A stretch of 64,000 bases of DNA, from contig NZ_CAJHBL010000002.1 in assembly GCF_904846625.1 (NCBI RefSeq), positions 124,001 to 188,000 on the forward strand, in the 5' to 3' direction. This stretch comes from Psychrobacter sp. JCM 18900 (GTDB taxonomy: Bacteria; Pseudomonadota; Gammaproteobacteria; Pseudomonadales; Moraxellaceae). The position numbers and the translations under genes are program-made. Positions 56,867-64,000 of the stretch are shown piece by piece (positions within the stretch are counted from its first letter, which is position 1; the number at the start of each line of letters is the position of its first letter). The notes beneath the pieces are model-generated. The model did not search any database. It worked only from the letters and a program-made list of their open reading frames with translations, and was not told where the DNA came from.

Positions 56867-58069
56867 ATGACAAAATTTTTACCGAAAAAGACACTACTAT
56901 TGGCAGGCGCAGGTCATGCTCACATTGGCATGTTACGCCGACTTAGCGCAGCGCGTTTAAAGGCCTCCGAAACTATAGATGCAGATATTCACTTAATTAG
57001 TGAGCAACCGCAAACCATCTATTCTGGCATGTTACCGGGTTGGATGGCAGGGCATTATCAGCTGCATGATATCAGTATTGATATCAAATCGCTTTGTGTA
57101 CGAGCAGGGGTGCGCTTGATTCAGCAGTCGCTTGTACAAGTAAACGCAGCGTCAAACAAGGTGGTTACGACTGGCGATGAACAAACGGATTTTAACTACG
57201 ATGTTTTGTCTTTAAATACGGGCGCAGATACAGATATGCGTTGGCTACGTGACCACAATGGCTACAACGAGCATAAAAGCGATAGTGATGATAGAGATGT
57301 TGGCGCTGTTAATACCTATGCTAATACTGACGTGATTGCCATACGACCGTTATCAACATTTATCATTCAATGGCAGCAGATTCTAAAGGCCGCTCAGCAG
57401 TCTGAAAAGTATCAATTGGCTATTATTGGGGCAGGTGCTGCGGCAATAGAATTGGTCATGGCAGCCCAAGTCGCGCTACGGAACATCAATCGTAATCATC
57501 AAGTGACATTAGTATGCGGTCAAAATCTATTGTCAGGGTTTAATTCGGGCTTTCGACAGCGGGTTATCAAGCAGCTAGATCGACATGACATTACGATAGT
57601 TCGAGAACGAGCGACCGATTATCGTGACGGTAAATTATCAACTACGCATAAATCATTGCCCATCAATGCGGTCATCGCTGCGACTGGCGTCATAGGCTCG
57701 GCATGGACGGCTTCTACAGATTTGGAGATAGAAGGCGATGGGTTTGTCGCGGTAAACGATAAGCAGCAAAGTGTCTCTCATTCTAATGTCTTTGCCGTTG
57801 GTGATGTGGCGACACGAATCGATAAATACGTGGCGCACTCGGGGGTTCATTCAGTGCATGGTGGTGCTATCGAAGCTGATAATTTATTAGCCTATTTGAA
57901 AGAGAGCGTAATGAAGAGCTATCAGCCAAAGTCACGCACGCTATATCTGCTGTCTTGCGGTGATAAATACGCCATTGGTAGTTGGGGTAATCTAAACCTA
58001 CAAGGTCGCTGGGTATGGCATCTCAAAAAGTATATTGATAAACGCTTCATAGAGGCGGATAAGGGTTAA
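56867..58069 (+). CDS. FAD-dependent oxidoreductase, SelD-associated type (TIGR03169-like)
   Basis: About 400-residue flavoprotein related to NDH-2 and to the N-terminal oxidoreductase module found with selenophosphate synthetase SelD. Motifs: LLLAGAGHAHIGMLRRL (FAD), TIYSGMLPGWMAGHYQLHD, LAIIGAGAAAIELVMA (NADH-type site) and VFAVGDVAT. A TTG at 56852 could start it 15 bases earlier; the ATG at 56867 is preferred. It precedes arsS by 221 bases on the same strand. Redox partner unknown; selD itself is not in the window. It may supply electrons to, or act on, an arsenical or selenium intermediate (inference). Confidence 0.78.
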   Translation: MTKFLPKKTLLLAGAGHAHIGMLRRLSAARLKASETIDADIHLISEQPQTIYSGMLPGWMAGHYQLHDISIDIKSLCVRAGVRLIQQSLVQVNAASNKVVTTGDEQTDFNYDVLSLNTGADTDMRWLRDHNGYNEHKSDSDDRDVGAVNTYANTDVIAIRPLSTFIIQWQQILKAAQQSEKYQLAIIGAGAAAIELVMAAQVALRNINRNHQVTLVCGQNLLSGFNSGFRQRVIKQLDRHDITIVRERATDYRDGKLSTTHKSLPINAVIAATGVIGSAWTASTDLEIEGDGFVAVNDKQQSVSHSNVFAVGDVATRIDKYVAHSGVHSVHGGAIEADNLLAYLKESVMKSYQPKSRTLYLLSCGDKYAIGSWGNLNLQGRWVWHLKKYIDKRFIEADKG

Positions 58070-58290
58070 TGCTCATTTGGAATAAACCATAAGATCCACA
58101 TGATTAGTTGTCAATGCTTATTGATAATCAGGTATGATTGATTAGATAAACCGTAAAGCGAGAAAGTGGGTTTTACGTTGTAAATCTTAAAAATAAACAG
58201 TAAAAGCAATGCGCTAACTTTGTTTTCTAATCTTTAATGTCACGTTGCTATCCTTTTTTAGTTGTACTGCTAACAGGATTTTATACCACC

Positions 58291-59283
58291 ATGAAATCAA
58301 CCATCGAGCTACTTGAGCATACTGATTTTCCAGCGATAAAACGACGCCAATTGACGATATTGCAAGTCAATATGGGCTACTTATGCAATATGTCCTGTGT
58401 GCACTGTCATGTGGCTGCAAGCCCTTATCGTACCGAGCTGATGTCACGTGAGTTGGTTGAGCTGATACCGAAGGTATTACAAGCACAAAACATCGATACG
58501 CTTGATTTGACGGGCGGTGCGCCTGAGATGCATGAGGATTTTAAGTATTTAGTCACGGCAGCTCGGGCATTAGGTGTCAAAGTGATAGACCGCTGTAACC
58601 TGACCATTCTGATGGAAGAGGGTTATGAGGATATGGCGCAGTTTTTAGCAGACAACCAAGTGGAAGTGGTGGCTTCTTTGCCTTGTTATTCCTTAGAAAA
58701 CGTAGACAAACAACGCGGTAAAGGCGCGTTTGACGACAGTATATTAGGATTGCAGAAGCTCAACAGCTTGGGGTACGGCAAGCCTGATTCAGATTTAACA
58801 TTAAACTTGGTTTTCAATCCGCAAGGTGCGACACTGCCGCCCAATCAACAACAGCTTGAAGCCGACTATAAGCGTGAGTTAAAAGCGCACTTTGATATTG
58901 AGTTTAATCATCTATTTGCCCTAACCAATATGCCGATTCAGCGTTTTGGAGCGGTGCTATTGGCAAAAGACCAGTTCCATCCGTATATGGATTTGCTCAA
59001 AGCTAATTATATGGCTGCCAATTTAGCCGAGGTTATGTGCCGTTCGACCATTAGTGTCAATTGGTTGGGTGAGTTATTTGATTGTGATTTCAATCAGCAG
59101 TTAGAGATTCCTGTCCCAAACAAGTTACGGCGACACCTAAGTGATTTGTTAACGCAAAACCCTTCTGGTGATGACATCGCCATTGCTGACCACTGCTATG
59201 GCTGTACAGCAGGACAGGGCAGTAGTTGTGGCGGCGCGTTAGAAGAAGAGGCAGTAGAACCAGCGTTAGCAGACACGCCTTAG
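58291..59283 (+). CDS. arsS: Arsenosugar biosynthesis radical SAM protein ArsS
   Basis: 330-residue radical SAM enzyme. The cluster motif is C32-x3-C36-x2-C39 (CNMSCVHC) and the second domain (DUF3641) ends in the Cys-rich HCYGCTAGQGSSCGG; MCRSTISVNWLGELFDCDFNQQL is also family-specific (quoted in parts). ArsS transfers a 5'-deoxyadenosyl radical to dimethylarsinous acid, giving 5'-deoxy-5'-dimethylarsinoyl-adenosine, precursor of arsenosugars. Some family members have selenocysteine; here Cys codons are used. The ATG at 58291 is chosen over one at 58237, which would add a hydrophobic leader absent in relatives. Two glycosyltransferases and arsM follow, fixing the pathway. Confidence 0.9.
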   Translation: MKSTIELLEHTDFPAIKRRQLTILQVNMGYLCNMSCVHCHVAASPYRTELMSRELVELIPKVLQAQNIDTLDLTGGAPEMHEDFKYLVTAARALGVKVIDRCNLTILMEEGYEDMAQFLADNQVEVVASLPCYSLENVDKQRGKGAFDDSILGLQKLNSLGYGKPDSDLTLNLVFNPQGATLPPNQQQLEADYKRELKAHFDIEFNHLFALTNMPIQRFGAVLLAKDQFHPYMDLLKANYMAANLAEVMCRSTISVNWLGELFDCDFNQQLEIPVPNKLRRHLSDLLTQNPSGDDIAIADHCYGCTAGQGSSCGGALEEEAVEPALADTP

Positions 59284-59357
59284 CAATTCTAATGTTAGTG
59301 CTTTTAATATAAGCATTTTAAACATAGGTGCTTTAAGCCTAAGTGCTTTTAGCATAC
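59283..59357. repeat. Degenerate 15-bp tandem repeat, four to five units
   Basis: Units of exactly 15 bases start at 59298, 59313, 59328 and 59343, consensus GTGCTTTTAANCATA; 59283-59297 is a weaker fifth. They lie just after the arsS stop and before the DUF547 gene. Probably slippage-born; could affect operon read-through. Confidence 0.65.
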
Positions 59358-59403
59358 ATAAAAATTTAGATAAAAAACAATCAGTATAAACGGAGTAAGC
59401 CTT

Positions 59404-60225
59404 ATGTCAGTATCTAACTTTTCAGCGAAGACATTTTTCGCCCAACCAGTGATTGCTACGACTATTTTATTAGCAAGCGTGGCCGCTCATGCTGACTTTA
59501 ACCATCAGAGCTGGGATAGCTTATTAAATAAGCATGTGACCATGACCAACGGTGGCAAAGCTTCAATGGTCAATTATGCTGGCATGAAAGCAGATCAAAG
59601 TAAGCTGACAAGCTATCTGGAAGCGACAAGCAAAGTGTCTCAATCAGAATTCAATCGTTGGAGTAAAAACGAGCAGTTGGCATTTTTAATCAACGTTTAT
59701 AACGCTGGTACGATTGATTTGGTATTGACGAAATATCCAAACGTCAAATCTATCAAAGATATCGGCGGACTGTTTGGGTCACCATGGAAGCAAGAGTTTG
59801 TTTCGGTACTCGGTAAGACGCGCTCACTTGATGATATCGAGCACAATCTCATTCGTGGCTCTAAACGCTACAACGATCCGCGCATTCACTTTGCGGTCAA
59901 TTGTGCCAGTATTGGTTGCCCAGCACTGCAAGATGATGCCTTTACTGGCAAGCGCTTAGACCGTCAATTAGAGCAGGCAACGTCTAAGTTTTTAGCAGAC
60001 AGTAGTCGCAACACTCTCAAAGGCAGTACGCTAAAAGTGTCGCCAATTTTTAAATGGTATAAAGAAGATTTTGCAACCAACTGGCGTGGCACCAAAGATT
60101 TAGCAGGGTTTTTGGGTCGTTATAGCTCGTCATTAGGACTGAATAAAGCTCAGACAGCAGAGCTAAAACAAGGCAAGATAAAAATAAGCTATACCGACTA
60201 CAACTGGAATTTGAACAAAAAATAA
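59404..60225 (+). CDS. DUF547 exported protein
   Basis: 273-residue protein with a signal peptide (hydrophobic IATTILLASVAAHA, cleavage after AHA). The DUF547 core is evident: LAFLINVYNAGTIDLVL, SPWKQEFVSVLG, LDDIEHNLIRG, DPRIHFAVNCASIGCPAL and SPIFKWYKEDF. These Cys- and His-containing periplasmic proteins have no established function; one Cys pair (NCASIGC) is conserved. It lies between arsS and the glycosyltransferase genes, 18 bases before the next frame, so probably in the same transcript. GGAG precedes the ATG by nine bases. Confidence 0.87.
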   Translation: MSVSNFSAKTFFAQPVIATTILLASVAAHADFNHQSWDSLLNKHVTMTNGGKASMVNYAGMKADQSKLTSYLEATSKVSQSEFNRWSKNEQLAFLINVYNAGTIDLVLTKYPNVKSIKDIGGLFGSPWKQEFVSVLGKTRSLDDIEHNLIRGSKRYNDPRIHFAVNCASIGCPALQDDAFTGKRLDRQLEQATSKFLADSSRNTLKGSTLKVSPIFKWYKEDFATNWRGTKDLAGFLGRYSSSLGLNKAQTAELKQGKIKISYTDYNWNLNKK

Positions 60226-60255
60226 GCCAGTTTTTAATCTTAATTGCTGATTAAC

Positions 60256-60975
60256 GTGACGGTATATCCATTGAACCTATCAATTATTGTTCCTTTATTA
60301 AATGAAGCGGATAACTTGCCTGAGCTTATGGCTCATATTGTCCGTCTCGATCCAGCACCGCAGCAAGTAGTATTGGTCGATGGTGGTTCAGTGGATGGTT
60401 CGGTTGCTATCGCCGACAGTGTGCTCAAAAGTATAGAGACTGCTCAATCAGCTATTGATTGGCATATTATCGAATCTACCGTAGGACGTGCTCACCAAAT
60501 GAATGAGGGCGCTATGTTGGCAACAGGTGACGTGCTGCTATTTTTACATGCTGATACCGCGCTGCCTGCTGACGCGATAGACAACGTTCAACAAGCAATA
60601 GCTCAGTACGATTGGGGCCGTTTTGATGTCCGTTTAGATAGCCGTGAGCCATTGTTGAGCATCGTCGGATTAATGATAAATCAACGCTCGCGCTTAATGG
60701 GTATAGCTACTGGCGATCAAGCAATATTTATCAAAAAGTCTGTGTTCGAGCAGATTGGTGGCTATCCTGATCAGCCACTGATGGAAGATATAGAACTGTG
60801 TAAACGGCTAAAGAAAATTTCTCGACCAGCTTGTCTAAAAAGTAAAGTCACGACCTCAGCGCGGCGTTGGCAGCAGTATGGTACATGGCGGACAATTTTC
60901 TTGATGTGGCATTTGCGCTTTGATTATTGGCGCGGCGTATCGCCTGATGTCTTAAAGCAACGCTACTATAATTAA
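60256..60975 (+). CDS. Family 2 glycosyltransferase, arsenosugar type (TIGR04283-like)
   Basis: About 240-residue GT-A glycosyltransferase. LSIIVPLLNEADNLPELM opens the domain, VVLVDGGSVDGS binds the nucleotide sugar, STVGRAHQMNEGA and FLHADTALP (DxD-like HAD) follow, then GDQAIFIKKSVFEQIGGYPDQPLMEDIELCKRL. This is the pattern of the TIGR04283 group encoded with ArsS. It has no ATG: GTG at 60256 or TTG at 60244 or 60271 must serve, and no clear ribosome site exists, so expression may depend on coupling to the DUF547 gene. Likely adds a sugar or builds the ribose aglycone; acceptor unproven. Confidence 0.82.
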   Translation: MTVYPLNLSIIVPLLNEADNLPELMAHIVRLDPAPQQVVLVDGGSVDGSVAIADSVLKSIETAQSAIDWHIIESTVGRAHQMNEGAMLATGDVLLFLHADTALPADAIDNVQQAIAQYDWGRFDVRLDSREPLLSIVGLMINQRSRLMGIATGDQAIFIKKSVFEQIGGYPDQPLMEDIELCKRLKKISRPACLKSKVTTSARRWQQYGTWRTIFLMWHLRFDYWRGVSPDVLKQRYYN

Positions 60976-61059
60976 TGAAGTTGTTTGATTTATCAACATG
61001 ATAGACAAGATAAGAAAGAGTTCATCCTCGTGCATTTGACTAATTGAGAGACCGTTATA

Positions 61060-61707
61060 GTGACAGCTGATTTATCTGCAAGACAGCAAGATACCTGTAT
61101 CATTCTGTTTGCAAAATATCCAGCGCCTAATAAGGCAAAGACTCGTTTGCAACCAGCGTTAGGGGTAGATGGTGCTGCACGTATGGCGAGGCAACTATTA
61201 CTGCATAGTATTGAGCAGGCTATTGATACGGGCTTTTCCGTTGAGTTATGTATGAGTCCAGCACCAACAGATCCATGCTGGCATGCGCTTGATTTGCCCA
61301 ACTCGTTGCGCTGGTCTGCTCAGGCCGATGGTGATTTGGGTTTGCGTATGTTGATAGCCAGTCAGCAAGCATTAGAATGTTTTCAAAAGGTTGTGTTAAT
61401 TGGTACGGATTGCCCTAGTCTTACGACAGCACGTATTCAGACAGCGGTACAGCAGCTAAACCAGCACGATGCGGTTATGATTCCAGCGACTGATGGTGGT
61501 TATGTGTTGTTAGGGTTTAAGCGAGTTGATGAAAGCCTGTTTTCGGACATTATTTGGAGTACGCCTAGTGTTGCTGCTGTCACTAAGCAGCGCATGGCGG
61601 CATTAGGTTGGACACTTGCGCTATTTGATCCTTTGCATGATATTGATGAGCCTAAAGATCTAAAACATTTACCGTCAGGCTGGCTAGATTCTGACATTAA
61701 TGTTTAA
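61060..61707 (+). CDS. TIGR04282/DUF2064 glycosyltransferase-like protein of arsenosugar synthesis
   Basis: 215-residue nucleotidyl/glycosyltransferase-like protein of the DUF2064 family. Signatures: IILFAKYPAPNKAKTRL (G-x-K-TRL), QADGDLGLRM, VVLIGTDCPSLT with the DxD-like DCP, MIPATDGGYVLLGF and LHDIDEPKDL. It is paired with the TIGR04283 glycosyltransferase in arsenosugar clusters, as here (85 bases apart). The start is a GTG with GAGAG about eleven bases ahead. Reaction not demonstrated. A MITE lies between it and arsM. Confidence 0.85.
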   Translation: MTADLSARQQDTCIILFAKYPAPNKAKTRLQPALGVDGAARMARQLLLHSIEQAIDTGFSVELCMSPAPTDPCWHALDLPNSLRWSAQADGDLGLRMLIASQQALECFQKVVLIGTDCPSLTTARIQTAVQQLNQHDAVMIPATDGGYVLLGFKRVDESLFSDIIWSTPSVAAVTKQRMAALGWTLALFDPLHDIDEPKDLKHLPSGWLDSDINV

Positions 61708-61798
61708 TGTCGATAAAGACTGATAGCTGATTACGGATAATTGACAACTGTGTTAATAAGCTCACTAATGTAGTTGCATATTCTAAGACGATTTACTA

Positions 61799-61968
61799 GG
61801 GCGTGTCCTCAATTCAATCGATAGTTATCTAAATGGGTTAAAAATGGCTAAATCTTGCCAAACGGCATCAAATAGCTGACTAATATCTCGATATTATCTG
61901 CGCTATTTTCCTTGTTTGACTGCAATTTATCTCATTTTTATCACCATTTTTAAAATGAGGACACGCCC
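61799..61968. mobile_element. 170-bp MITE with 13-bp perfect terminal inverted repeats
   Basis: GGGCGTGTCCTCA at 61799-61811 and its complement at 61956-61968 (TT agreement continues past one mismatch). TA flanks both ends (CTA-GGG, CCC-TAA). A central perfect hairpin is formed by AAATAGC / GCTATTT (61870-61908) enclosing TAATATC / GATATTA. No coding frame. The termini differ from those of the element at 29699 apart from the leading GGG and TA flanks, so a different transposase is likely. Confidence 0.72.
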
Positions 61969-62010
61969 TAATACTTTTAACCGGATGGTACATTCAATAA
62001 GGATATTGTT

Positions 62011-63054
62011 ATGCATGACGTCGTACAAAATTACTATGGCAAAGAGTTACAGAGTACCGATGATTTAAAGACTTCCGCTTGTTGTGATGTCAGCAATATG
62101 CCTGAGTGGCTTAAGCCGCTACTGGCAAATATTCACGATGAAGTATTGAGTCGTTATTATGGCTGTGGTCTGGTGTGTCCAGCACTGCTTGAGGGCTGCC
62201 GAATTTTAGACTTGGGCAGTGGCTCAGGCCGAGATGTCTATGCATTAGCGCAACTGGTTGGTGAGAGTGGGTATGTGGTCGGTGTGGATATGACCGATGA
62301 GCAGCTAGCGGTCGCCAAAGAGCATCAGCAATATCACATCGACAAGTTTGGTTATGACAATGTGACATTTTTGCATGGCTATATCGAGAAACTAGATGAA
62401 CTAGAGCTGGCGGCTGGTAGCTTCGATATTATCGTCTCAAACTGCGTTATCAATCTATCACCAGATAAAGCCGCGGTTATGGCCAGTGTGCAGCGTTTGC
62501 TGAAACCTGGTGGGGAGTTTTATTTTTCTGACGTCTATGCTGATCGCCGTATCCCGCAACACTTAATCGATGACCCAGTCTTATATGGAGAGTGTTTGAG
62601 CGGTGCATTGTATTGGAAGGATTTTAACCGTTTGTCACGAGATGCAGGTTTCTTAGACATACGTTTGGTTGAAGATCGCCCACTTGAGATTACAGATCCT
62701 ACCTTATCAGCTAAAATTGGTGATATTCAGTTTTTCTCTGCGACTTACCGTTTGTTTAAGATAGCATCGCTTGAGGATGCTTGCGAAGATCACGGACAAG
62801 CGGTGATATATAAAGGAACTATCGAGCAGTCACCGCATCGGTTTGATTTAGATAAACATCATGCTATCGAAGCTGGTCGGGTATTCCCAGTATGTGGCAA
62901 TACGTTTCGCATGCTGAAAGAGTCTCGCTTTGCACCGCACTTTGAGTTTATCGGTGATGACAGTCGTCACTACGGTATTTTTGCGGGTTGCGGTGAGCTA
63001 CTGCCATTTAATCAACCTATGATGCTGGCATCTGGTGCAGGTGGTTGTTGCTGA
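62011..63054 (+). CDS. arsM: Arsenite S-adenosylmethionine methyltransferase ArsM
   Basis: 347-residue SAM methyltransferase. SAM motif ILDLGSGSGRDVYALAQ (residues 65-81), GVDMTDEQL, then SNCVINLSPDK. Arsenite-binding Cys are C145 and C195 (YGECLSGA), spaced by 50 as in characterised algal ArsM; an N-terminal SACC (C24, C25) adds further thiols. A 100-residue C-terminal domain ends in a Gly-Cys-Cys tail. It makes methyl- and dimethylarsenite, the ArsS substrate. AAGGA seven bases before the ATG. It is downstream of the glycosyltransferase genes but separated by the MITE, so it may have its own promoter. Confidence 0.92.
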   Translation: MHDVVQNYYGKELQSTDDLKTSACCDVSNMPEWLKPLLANIHDEVLSRYYGCGLVCPALLEGCRILDLGSGSGRDVYALAQLVGESGYVVGVDMTDEQLAVAKEHQQYHIDKFGYDNVTFLHGYIEKLDELELAAGSFDIIVSNCVINLSPDKAAVMASVQRLLKPGGEFYFSDVYADRRIPQHLIDDPVLYGECLSGALYWKDFNRLSRDAGFLDIRLVEDRPLEITDPTLSAKIGDIQFFSATYRLFKIASLEDACEDHGQAVIYKGTIEQSPHRFDLDKHHAIEAGRVFPVCGNTFRMLKESRFAPHFEFIGDDSRHYGIFAGCGELLPFNQPMMLASGAGGCC

Positions 63055-63103
63055 TACTAAAGAGAGATAGTTAGCATACGTTCTAAATATACAGATTAAA
63101 ACC

Positions 63104-63142
63104 ACAAAAAGGGCCGTTAGTTCATATAACGGCCCTTTTTTA
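63104..63142. terminator. Bidirectional terminator, arsM / phosphorylase
   Basis: AAAAAGGGCCGTTA / TAACGGCCCTTTTT with a GTTCATA loop; A- and T-tracts suit both convergent genes. Confidence 0.88.
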
Positions 63143-63215
63143 TATGCATAGTATTATAACGTTTCTCTTGCTATCTTTATTTCAGATAAACATCTATTCA
63201 ACCACTTTTTATTGT

Positions 63216-64000
63216 CTAAGGTAGCAAGGCGGCCAGTCTAATCTTGGTATGCTCGTCCATCGCATCTATAGGTGTGACCAATGCTTGCGCAAGGGCATTA
63301 TGGGCGATTGACTCAGGCAGCTCAGCGGCAATCAAAGCGACGGCTTCTTTAATCACTTTTTGAGCATTGTCCGCATTTTTCATGAGGTTTTTTATTGCAT
63401 AGTCGGCACTGACGGCTTCTTCAGTCGGATGCCAACAATCAAAATCTGTCACCAGTGCCAGCGTAGCATAGGCAATACTGGCCTCACGAGCCAATTTGGC
63501 TTCTGGCATATTGGTCATACCGATAATATCTGCCTGCATTTGGCGATACCACTCTGACTCTGCACGAGTTGAGAACTGTGGCCCTTCGATACAGACATAA
63601 GTCGCCTGTGGGTGACTAGTGCCTTCTGTAATATCCGCTTGGTCATAAGCACGCGTCAAGATATTTGCTAGGGCAGGACATAGTGGGTCTGCCATTGATA
63701 CATGGGCGACGGCACCTTCACCGAAGAACGTACTCACTCGCTGCTTGGTCATATCAATCATTTGATCAGGCACGACCATATCTAATGGCTTAAGCGATTC
63801 TCGTAGAGAGCCTACTGCTGAGACGGAGACGATGTAGCGCACGCCTAATGTTTTTAGTGCGTAGATATTGGCACGATAGGGCACTTCAGACGGGGTCAGT
63901 CTGTGGCCCTGACCATGCCGTGTTAGAAATGCGACTGTCACTCCCTCAAGCTCACCTAAGACAATATCATCAGATGGACTGCCATAAGGCGTCTGTATCG
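63216..64000 (-). CDS. Methylthioadenosine phosphorylase-like enzyme (5' end off window)
   Basis: Partial purine nucleoside phosphorylase-family protein (MTAP subgroup), at least 260 residues; the frame continues past 64000. TPYGSPSD, FLTRHGQGHRLTPSEVPYRANIYALKTLG (quoted in parts), IVSVSAVGSLRE, CIEGPQFSTRAESEWYRQ, IGMTNMPEAKLAREA and VTDFDCWH are MTAP marks, including the phosphate-binding RHG and the purine-binding Asp in TDFDCW. MTAP cleaves 5'-deoxy-5'-methylthioadenosine to adenine and sugar phosphate. Placed next to arsM/arsS it is a natural candidate for removing adenine from dimethylarsinoyl-adenosine. A plain methionine-salvage role is equally possible. Confidence 0.9.
   Translation of the reverse strand, partial: IQTPYGSPSDDIVLGELEGVTVAFLTRHGQGHRLTPSEVPYRANIYALKTLGVRYIVSVSAVGSLRESLKPLDMVVPDQMIDMTKQRVSTFFGEGAVAHVSMADPLCPALANILTRAYDQADITEGTSHPQATYVCIEGPQFSTRAESEWYRQMQADIIGMTNMPEAKLAREASIAYATLALVTDFDCWHPTEEAVSADYAIKNLMKNADNAQKVIKEAVALIAAELPESIAHNALAQALVTPIDAMDEHTKIRLAALLP

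Follow-up and report, generated by a model that had tools for sequence, protein, structure and literature searches.

Seaweeds contain arsenosugars among their major arsenic compounds, and to our knowledge none of the enzymes that act after dimethylarsinoyl-adenosine in arsenosugar synthesis has been assigned; a literature search, which covered few subscription papers, returned none either. How this arsenonucleoside might be processed further is the question raised by a gene cluster at the end of a 64,000-nucleotide stretch of DNA from the cold-loving bacterium Psychrobacter sp. JCM 18900 (contig 2, bases 124001–188000, in a genome of 3.28 Mb; hereafter, the window). The cluster comprises genes for ArsM, ArsS and two proteins of the families TIGR04283 and TIGR04282, together with a gene of the methylthioadenosine phosphorylase (MTAP) family. 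With somewhat more than even confidence we read it as an arsenosugar-type cassette in which the reactions of ArsM and ArsS would be followed by phosphorolysis by MTAP, nucleoside diphosphate (NDP) activation by the TIGR04282 protein and transfer by the TIGR04283 protein, giving a beta-riboside. The genes concerned are the following.

56867..58069, plus strand: FAD/NAD(P) oxidoreductase, TIGR03169-like, 400 amino acids, ATG at 56867 (TIGR03169, E 8e-84; PF07992)
58291..59283, plus strand: arsS, arsenosugar-type radical S-adenosylmethionine (SAM) protein with a DUF3641 domain and a CX3CX2C motif (TIGR04167; PF12345)
59404..60225, plus strand: DUF547 protein (PF04784, E 2e-28)
60244..60975, plus strand: GT2 glycosyltransferase of family TIGR04283 (TIGR04283; PF00535)
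61060..61707, plus strand: TIGR04282 protein, probably a CofC-like nucleotidyltransferase (TIGR04282; CofC model; AlphaFold2/Foldseek)
62011..63054, plus strand: arsM, AS3MT-like arsenite methyltransferase (PDB 5evj, 4fr0)
63216..64000, minus strand: MTAP-family phosphorylase, continuing for 109 bases past the window end (TIGR01694; PDB 4glf)

An arsenosugar-type gene set in Psychrobacter

On the plus strand the genes follow one another in the order FAD oxidoreductase, ArsS, DUF547, TIGR04283, TIGR04282 and ArsM; the MTAP gene is convergent with them and lies beyond a hairpin. All genes that the initial annotation had named at this locus are present and intact, and the set recurs, in whole or in part, in 42 other Psychrobacter loci (taken from the best 80 of 265 in a search for related loci). 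Judged by ArsS, the nearest relatives are Psychrobacter strains, with 98% identity to the ArsS of P. nivimaris. ArsS, TIGR04283 and TIGR04282 occur together in all 42 of these loci and MTAP in 41, the contig of the 42nd stopping first, counts which, like all gene counts given here, take no account of common descent. DUF547 is found in 39/42, ArsM in 26/42 and the FAD gene in 25/42. Because ArsS, TIGR04283 and TIGR04282 are constant and MTAP is nearly so, the arrangement is not due to chance. Pieces of the gene order recur beyond the genus.

Comparison with curated profiles bears out the type of cassette. ArsS scores 463.5 bits against TIGR04167 (equivalog cut-off 300; model positions 2-303 of 303), and it has the CX3CX2C motif in the form CNMSCVHC, C-terminal cysteines and the DUF3641 domain (PF12345, E 2e-55). 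Other ArsS proteins, among them the ArsS of Cheng et al. in 2021, are reported to transfer the 5'-deoxyadenosyl group. The TIGR04283 protein reaches 265.7 bits (equivalog cut-off 182) and matches PF00535; the TIGR04282 protein, treated below, also passes its model. The DUF547 protein scores 99.2 bits against PF04784 (cut-off 27), and the FAD protein 282 bits against TIGR03169, the model for SelD-associated oxidoreductases, which is under the cut-off of 310. ArsM passed neither of the curated ArsM models (NF008823, 174.1 vs 263; NF038099, 99.6 vs 400), although it matches the solved arsenite methyltransferases 5evj (E 8.5e-103, residues 4-329) and 4fr0 (E 9.9e-91). In an alignment to these two it keeps four aligned cysteines, in the motifs SAC, YGCG, SNC and GEC, which we take to be arsenic-binding, as we take the protein to be AS3MT-like. 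Of the description as an apparently complete arsenosugar locus, the cassette type stands on the three models passed, whereas completeness is presumed.

The initial annotation also implied that such genes are rare outside algae and cyanobacteria, which the genome counts do not support. ArsS was found in 34/149 sampled Moraxellaceae genomes and in 84/397 sampled Pseudomonadota genomes (of these 84, 77 were fetched, one is the window's own, and G204, G254, G283, G292, G295 and G298 were left out). Relatives are already labelled 'arsenosugar biosynthesis' in database records, and a 2026 Modicisalibacter genome paper lists two arsenosugar-type glycosyltransferase genes (PMC13077682). In view of these counts, labels and that paper, the cassette as such is of a known kind, automatically named; the trait is common and no rarity in heterotrophs, some of which have it on a plasmid. 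Acinetobacter portensis carries the core set and mtnP in this way, and Burkholderia glumae has a plasmid with a DUF6969 gene, MTAP, TIGR04283, TIGR04282 and an FAD gene standing head to tail. The literature search also returned a seaweed food review that mentions both Psychrobacter and arsenosugar.

Linkage and co-occurrence of MTAP

The complete MTAP gene encodes 297 amino acids (L006:9216-10109) and scores 328.4 bits against TIGR01694, the part inside the window alone scoring 299 bits (equivalog cut-off 274.85). That an MTAP-like protein takes part in the pathway had been a guess, which linkage, co-occurrence and a tree now strengthen; its grouping with the other genes was correct, with the qualification that the gene is convergent and cut by the window end. 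Among the 149 Moraxellaceae genomes MTAP is present in 34 and TIGR04282 in 36, and MTAP occurs in 34 of the 36 TIGR04282-positive genomes and in none of the 113 TIGR04282-negative ones (Fisher tests ignoring kinship: p 1.4e-31 for MTAP vs TIGR04282, p 8e-28 for MTAP vs ArsS). At the places listed, each of the 34 Moraxellaceae MTAPs lies no more than about 5 kb from TIGR04282 or ArsS. With 41/42 vs 26/42 Psychrobacter loci, MTAP is a steadier member of the cassette than ArsM.

Outside Psychrobacter, 38 ArsS loci were chosen, non-randomly, by similarity of their ArsS to that of the window, and 16 were omitted for short flanks; 18 of the 22 whose flanks measure 7 kb or more on each side have a glycosyltransferase-type gene, and 14 of these 18 have MTAP. 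With starts picked by script, a gap of 5-105 bases separates MTAP from an arsS downstream of it, both on one strand, in L165, L064, L073, L060 and L057; in L070 the distance between MTAP and TIGR04283 is 9 bases. Across Pseudomonadota an MTAP match at E 1e-40 was obtained in 81/84 genomes with ArsS vs 142/313 without (223 genomes match at this threshold, 176 over the curated cut-off). MTAP places are available for 149 of the 223 genomes, to about E 1e-85, and the distance counts are partial: among the matches listed, TIGR04282 and MTAP lie within 6 kb of each other in 23/84 genomes (20/50 with ArsS, 3/34 without). Since 18 of these 23 pairs belong to one family, f47, they count as few events; in L266, the one of them inspected gene by gene and by eye, MTAP is separated from the glycosyltransferase-type genes by an rlmN-like gene. 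A general rule for Pseudomonadota placing MTAP beside arsS was rejected, the two being within 6 kb in 3/52 genomes with both placed among the matches listed. MTAP looks like a member of the cassette and behaves like a pathway enzyme.

The host genome contains one MTAP, whereas searches of it returned no match to mtnA at E 0.001 and no match to a methylthioadenosine (MTA)/S-adenosylhomocysteine nucleosidase; the usual methionine salvage is thus not fed by MTAP. A function in methionine salvage is disfavoured for this host by the missing mtnA match and by the way MTAP tracks TIGR04282.

In a quick MTAP tree, one clade of 20 cassette MTAPs, with no unlinked member, brings together sequences of Psychrobacter, of further Gammaproteobacteria and of the B. 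glumae plasmid (Shimodaira-Hasegawa-like approximate likelihood ratio test, SH-aLRT, 100). A separate clade (87) holds the remaining cassette MTAPs of Burkholderiales and a third (100) the glycosyltransferase-linked f47 MTAPs; two further cassette MTAPs fall among unlinked ones. The tree has 64 rows, namely 45 selected linked sequences (Psychrobacter thinned to 10) and 19 unlinked ones, which lie away from TIGR04282 and ArsS, with ArsS elsewhere in G165, G184 and G359; L244, one of 20 stretches fetched, was omitted as the same gene as L264. Its topology suggests that MTAP was recruited to cassettes several times, which we call likely and not proven because the unlinked sample is small.

The window MTAP keeps the sequence TDFDCW, and TDxD is conserved in every linked MTAP of the tree; a Pseudomonas-like group is without it. 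We take the aspartate motif to be adenine-reading and the Pseudomonas-like group to be of the inosine type. As for the 5'-pocket, no clear signature of alteration common to all linked groups was seen in the cassette MTAPs. A substitute nucleosidase was sought among ten open frames from L155, L156, L169 and L174; the gene that the MTAP-less cassettes L155 and L156 have in addition between ArsM and TIGR04282 encodes a DUF3047 protein instead. DUF3047 proteins adjoin ArsM in several ArsS loci (L155:4956-5678, L156:7031-7732, L083:4056-4973).

Predicted fold of the TIGR04282 protein

The TIGR04282 protein scores 198.9 bits against its family model (cut-off 134). It also matches the CofC model TIGR03552 (E 8.8e-11, 41.8 bits, under the equivalog cut-off of 105) and has no match to any glycosyltransferase family in Pfam. 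In an alignment of 28 family sequences, positions within the motifs AKxP, KTR, GxD, DGGY and DxDxxxDL are invariant. An AlphaFold2 model of the protein (mean confidence, pLDDT, 93.9) was compared with solved structures by Foldseek, which returned 3cgx, CofC, Rv2983, 3-phosphoglycerate guanylyltransferase, KdsB, IspD, GlmU and glucose-1-phosphate cytidylyltransferase; none of the best 50 of 332 matches (E up to 0.001) is named glycosyltransferase. The first match, 3cgx, is titled 'putative nucleotide-diphospho-sugar transferase'. A profile built from the alignment finds 3cgx and, weakly, 2i5e (E 2.4e-4), 7p97 (E 6.7e-3) and 6bwg. Motifs and predicted fold point to a protein that is probably a CofC-like nucleotidyltransferase and not a glycosyltransferase, so that the count of two arsenosugar-type glycosyltransferases in the initial annotation is probably wrong. 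In L061 and L282, TIGR04282 is fused to TIGR04283, as would be expected of consecutive steps. A literature search for DUF2064 returned no paper.

Proposed route and alternatives

From the genes present, the families they belong to, the way they are linked and co-occur, and the predicted nucleotidyltransferase fold, we infer the following substrates, step order and product. ArsM would convert arsenite to dimethylarsenite, and ArsS would transfer the 5'-deoxyadenosyl group of SAM onto the arsenic to give 5'-dimethylarsino(yl)-5'-deoxyadenosine. The MTAP-family enzyme may then remove adenine with phosphate, yielding 5-deoxy-5-dimethylarsinoyl-alpha-ribose-1-phosphate, from which the TIGR04282 protein, as a CofC-type nucleotidyltransferase, could form NDP-arsenoribose. 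The TIGR04283 protein, an inverting GT2 enzyme, would finally place arsenoribose on glycerol or a related acceptor as a beta-riboside. GT2 enzymes invert. Nucleoside phosphorylases yield alpha-ribose-1-phosphate (PMC7226091), and a natural arsenosugar bears the name of a beta-riboside (PMC6656958). The stereochemistry fits the route because an alpha-sugar-1-phosphate and inversion by GT2 would lead to the natural beta-riboside.

Several observations weigh against this route, besides the neglect of common descent in our counts and the failure of ArsM to reach the curated cut-offs. In 16/42 Psychrobacter loci no ArsM adjoins the cassette (one such contig stops first), and TIGR04282 occurs without ArsS in 55/136 genomes. 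The Moraxellaceae genomes G016 and G027 have ArsS and TIGR04282 without MTAP, which is missing from the cassettes of L155, L156 and others. In 3/84 ArsS-positive Pseudomonadota genomes a search at E 1e-40 gave no MTAP match, and close ArsS-MTAP pairs are few in this phylum among the matches listed (the 3/52 given above). Conversely, Psychrobacter G073 and G101 (L157, L158) have MTAP and other cassette genes with no arsS match. The window MTAP, being convergent with the cassette, is on a separate transcript. Finally, Synechococcus elongatus, used as a control genome, matches ArsS and TIGR04282 and has no MTAP match, so that the same route, if followed there, would require a different enzyme at this step.

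The alternative to which we give most weight, though we consider it unlikely, is that arsenosugars are made while MTAP serves for clean-up, salvaging adenine from 5'-deoxyadenosine or MTA that arise when radical SAM turnover is uncoupled, or from other metabolism, and that some other enzyme deadenylates the arsenical. MTAP enzymes act on MTA by family, some cassettes do without MTAP, and in a host without a match to an MTA nucleosidase the enzyme may also serve MTA; it may indeed still dispose of MTA here. A clean-up function would not lead one to expect, however, that MTAP stays with the cassette in the two arsS-less genomes, that it is absent from the 113 TIGR04282-negative Moraxellaceae genomes, or that in the f47 group it lies near TIGR04282 and TIGR04283 and away from ArsS. 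It is less probable still that the arsenonucleoside leads to another organoarsenical, such as an arsenolipid or a non-glycerol riboside. This would alter the end product only, and the core families are the ones modelled as arsenosugar biosynthesis; an acceptor-specific gene was not identified, however, and DUF547, FAD, DUF3047 and TVP38-MerA genes accompany such sets.

Two further proposals appear very improbable to us. If TIGR04282 were a true glycosyltransferase, arsenoribose would need no nucleotide activation or would obtain it elsewhere. The NCBIfam name of the family and the title of 3cgx, the nearest solved structure, speak for this, and GT-A and nucleotidyltransferase folds are related; set against them are the CofC-model match, the missing Pfam glycosyltransferase match, the other 49 of the best 50 Foldseek matches, none named glycosyltransferase, and the invariant KTR, GxD and DGGY motifs. 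Nor do we give much credence to a function of MTAP in arsenate chemistry, in which nucleoside arsenolysis would form an easily reduced arsenate ester and so supply arsenite to ArsM. Reduction of arsenate by purine nucleoside phosphorylase has been reported in vitro (PMC12608789); in Moraxellaceae, however, MTAP tracks TIGR04282, and no sequence feature favouring arsenate over phosphate was seen in it.

The route through MTAP and TIGR04282 is the one we retain. On linkage and fold, two candidate enzymes, with a nucleotide sugar as intermediate, would fill the middle of the pathway, so far unexplained; the same evidence suggests that two database names mislead: 'TIGR04282 glycosyltransferase', and 'methionine salvage' for MTAP in these loci. 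MTAP as a pathway enzyme and the fold reading of TIGR04282 look to be the two points that are new here.

Cassettes with another radical SAM family

In G402 and G471, which have no ArsS match, TIGR04283, TIGR04282 and MTAP surround another radical SAM protein, in G471 together with ArsM. This protein passed no NCBIfam cut-off. Relatives of it occur in 99/337 sampled genomes of the class of G471, and 22 neighbourhoods were inspected (20 fetched, plus G402 and G471): TIGR04282 and TIGR04283 are near in 8/22, MTAP in four and ArsM in three. Four of the eight (L270, L271, L284 and L285) had been picked for a known nearby TIGR04282; among the others the count is 4/18. Loci of this family with TIGR04282/TIGR04283 are L271:7730-8713 (minus strand), L270:5345-6313 (minus strand), L284, L285, L289, L295, L299 and L300. 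ArsS was searched for in four of the genomes (G402, G471, G270, G273) with no match, and the other radical SAM family may stand in for ArsS there. The hosts, recorded as 'same phylum, other class', are probably Alphaproteobacteria. A defence function of the viperin type was considered for these radical SAM proteins and dropped, the superfamily matches being weak.

It is tempting to generalize, although we hold the following with slightly less than even confidence, that MTAP homologs have repeatedly been recruited as dedicated dimethylarsinoyl-adenosine phosphorylases, that TIGR04282 is the pyrophosphorylase which gives TIGR04283 its NDP-arsenoribose, that the logic resembles that of fluorometabolite synthesis, and that another radical SAM enzyme replaces ArsS in the probable Alphaproteobacteria.

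Other features of the locus and cassette variants

Two non-coding features were noted between the genes.

61798..61969, no strand: insertion resembling a miniature inverted-repeat transposable element (MITE), 172 bp, perfect 14-nt inverted ends, separating TIGR04282 from arsM
63106..63140, no strand: terminator-like hairpin of 14 pairs with A and T runs on either side, between the convergent arsM and MTAP genes

The MITE-like element is absent at the arsM site in L008, L010 and L011 and present in L016 and L058; related copies occur elsewhere in other Psychrobacter loci. A promoter and terminator scan of the region gave 5 terminator-like sites vs a shuffle mean of 5.8, i.e. no excess, and because sites were no more numerous than in shuffles no promoter is claimed. 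The flanking genes, for an S33 hydrolase and, identified by eye, dapD, a TRAP-type transporter and lipA, look unrelated to the cassette.

The composition of the cassette varies. Psychrobacter cassettes with ArsS, both glycosyltransferase-type genes and MTAP and with no adjacent ArsM are found in L028-L030, L032-L038, L041, L043-L045 and L048. A frequent member that is absent from the window locus is a TVP38/VTT membrane domain fused to a MerA-like flavoprotein (L053:11015-13222, L157, L158 and others). Betaproteobacterial cassettes have PhnE- and PhnC-like ABC transporter genes nearby (L074:15389-16351, L065:11870-13654), and on the Acinetobacter plasmid the methyltransferase and mtnP genes flank one for a phosphate transporter. 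The cassette MTAP of L078, a contig labelled as an Akkermansia metagenome-assembled genome, is nearly identical to a Limnohabitans MTAP; the label is probably a binning error.

Comparison with known systems

The locus shares with the ArsM-ArsS-TIGR04283-TIGR04282 cassette of the NCBI models and records the three families that pass curated models and an ArsM that is an arsenite methyltransferase homolog. It differs in that MTAP is in the locus, in that TIGR04282 is read as a probable nucleotidyltransferase, and in that ArsM is AS3MT-like and under the NF038099 cut-off. CofC/FbiD, the 2-phospholactate or phosphoenolpyruvate guanylyltransferase that acts in F420 synthesis, and 3-phosphoglycerate guanylyltransferase share the predicted fold and sequence motifs with TIGR04282; the sequence match is weak, and the likeness concerns fold and motifs.

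The solved structure closest to the window MTAP is RSFP (PDB 4glf, E 2.9e-164, residues 3-297). RSFP (4glf, 4glj) is described in the passages at hand as a putative MTAP from an Antarctic soil metagenome that was studied for rhodamine B binding, its phosphorylase activity then being still to examine; these passages are silent on arsenic (PMC3561333). Probably RSFP is the product of a Psychrobacter-type gene.

The nearest precedent in function is offered by fluorometabolite synthesis. In Streptomyces cattleya the 5'-fluoro-5'-deoxyadenosine phosphorylase FlB acts after the SAM-dependent fluorinase FlA (PMC8694150, PMC3999930). The two systems are likened by function, and the arsenic cassette would work like the fluorometabolite pathway without being a member of it. 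In the proposed route arsenic would be attached by a radical SAM enzyme, and NDP activation and glycosyl transfer would take the place of isomerisation and aldol cleavage. Common to both would be a heteroatom joined to the 5' carbon from SAM and, after it, a phosphorylase acting on the 5'-substituted adenosine.

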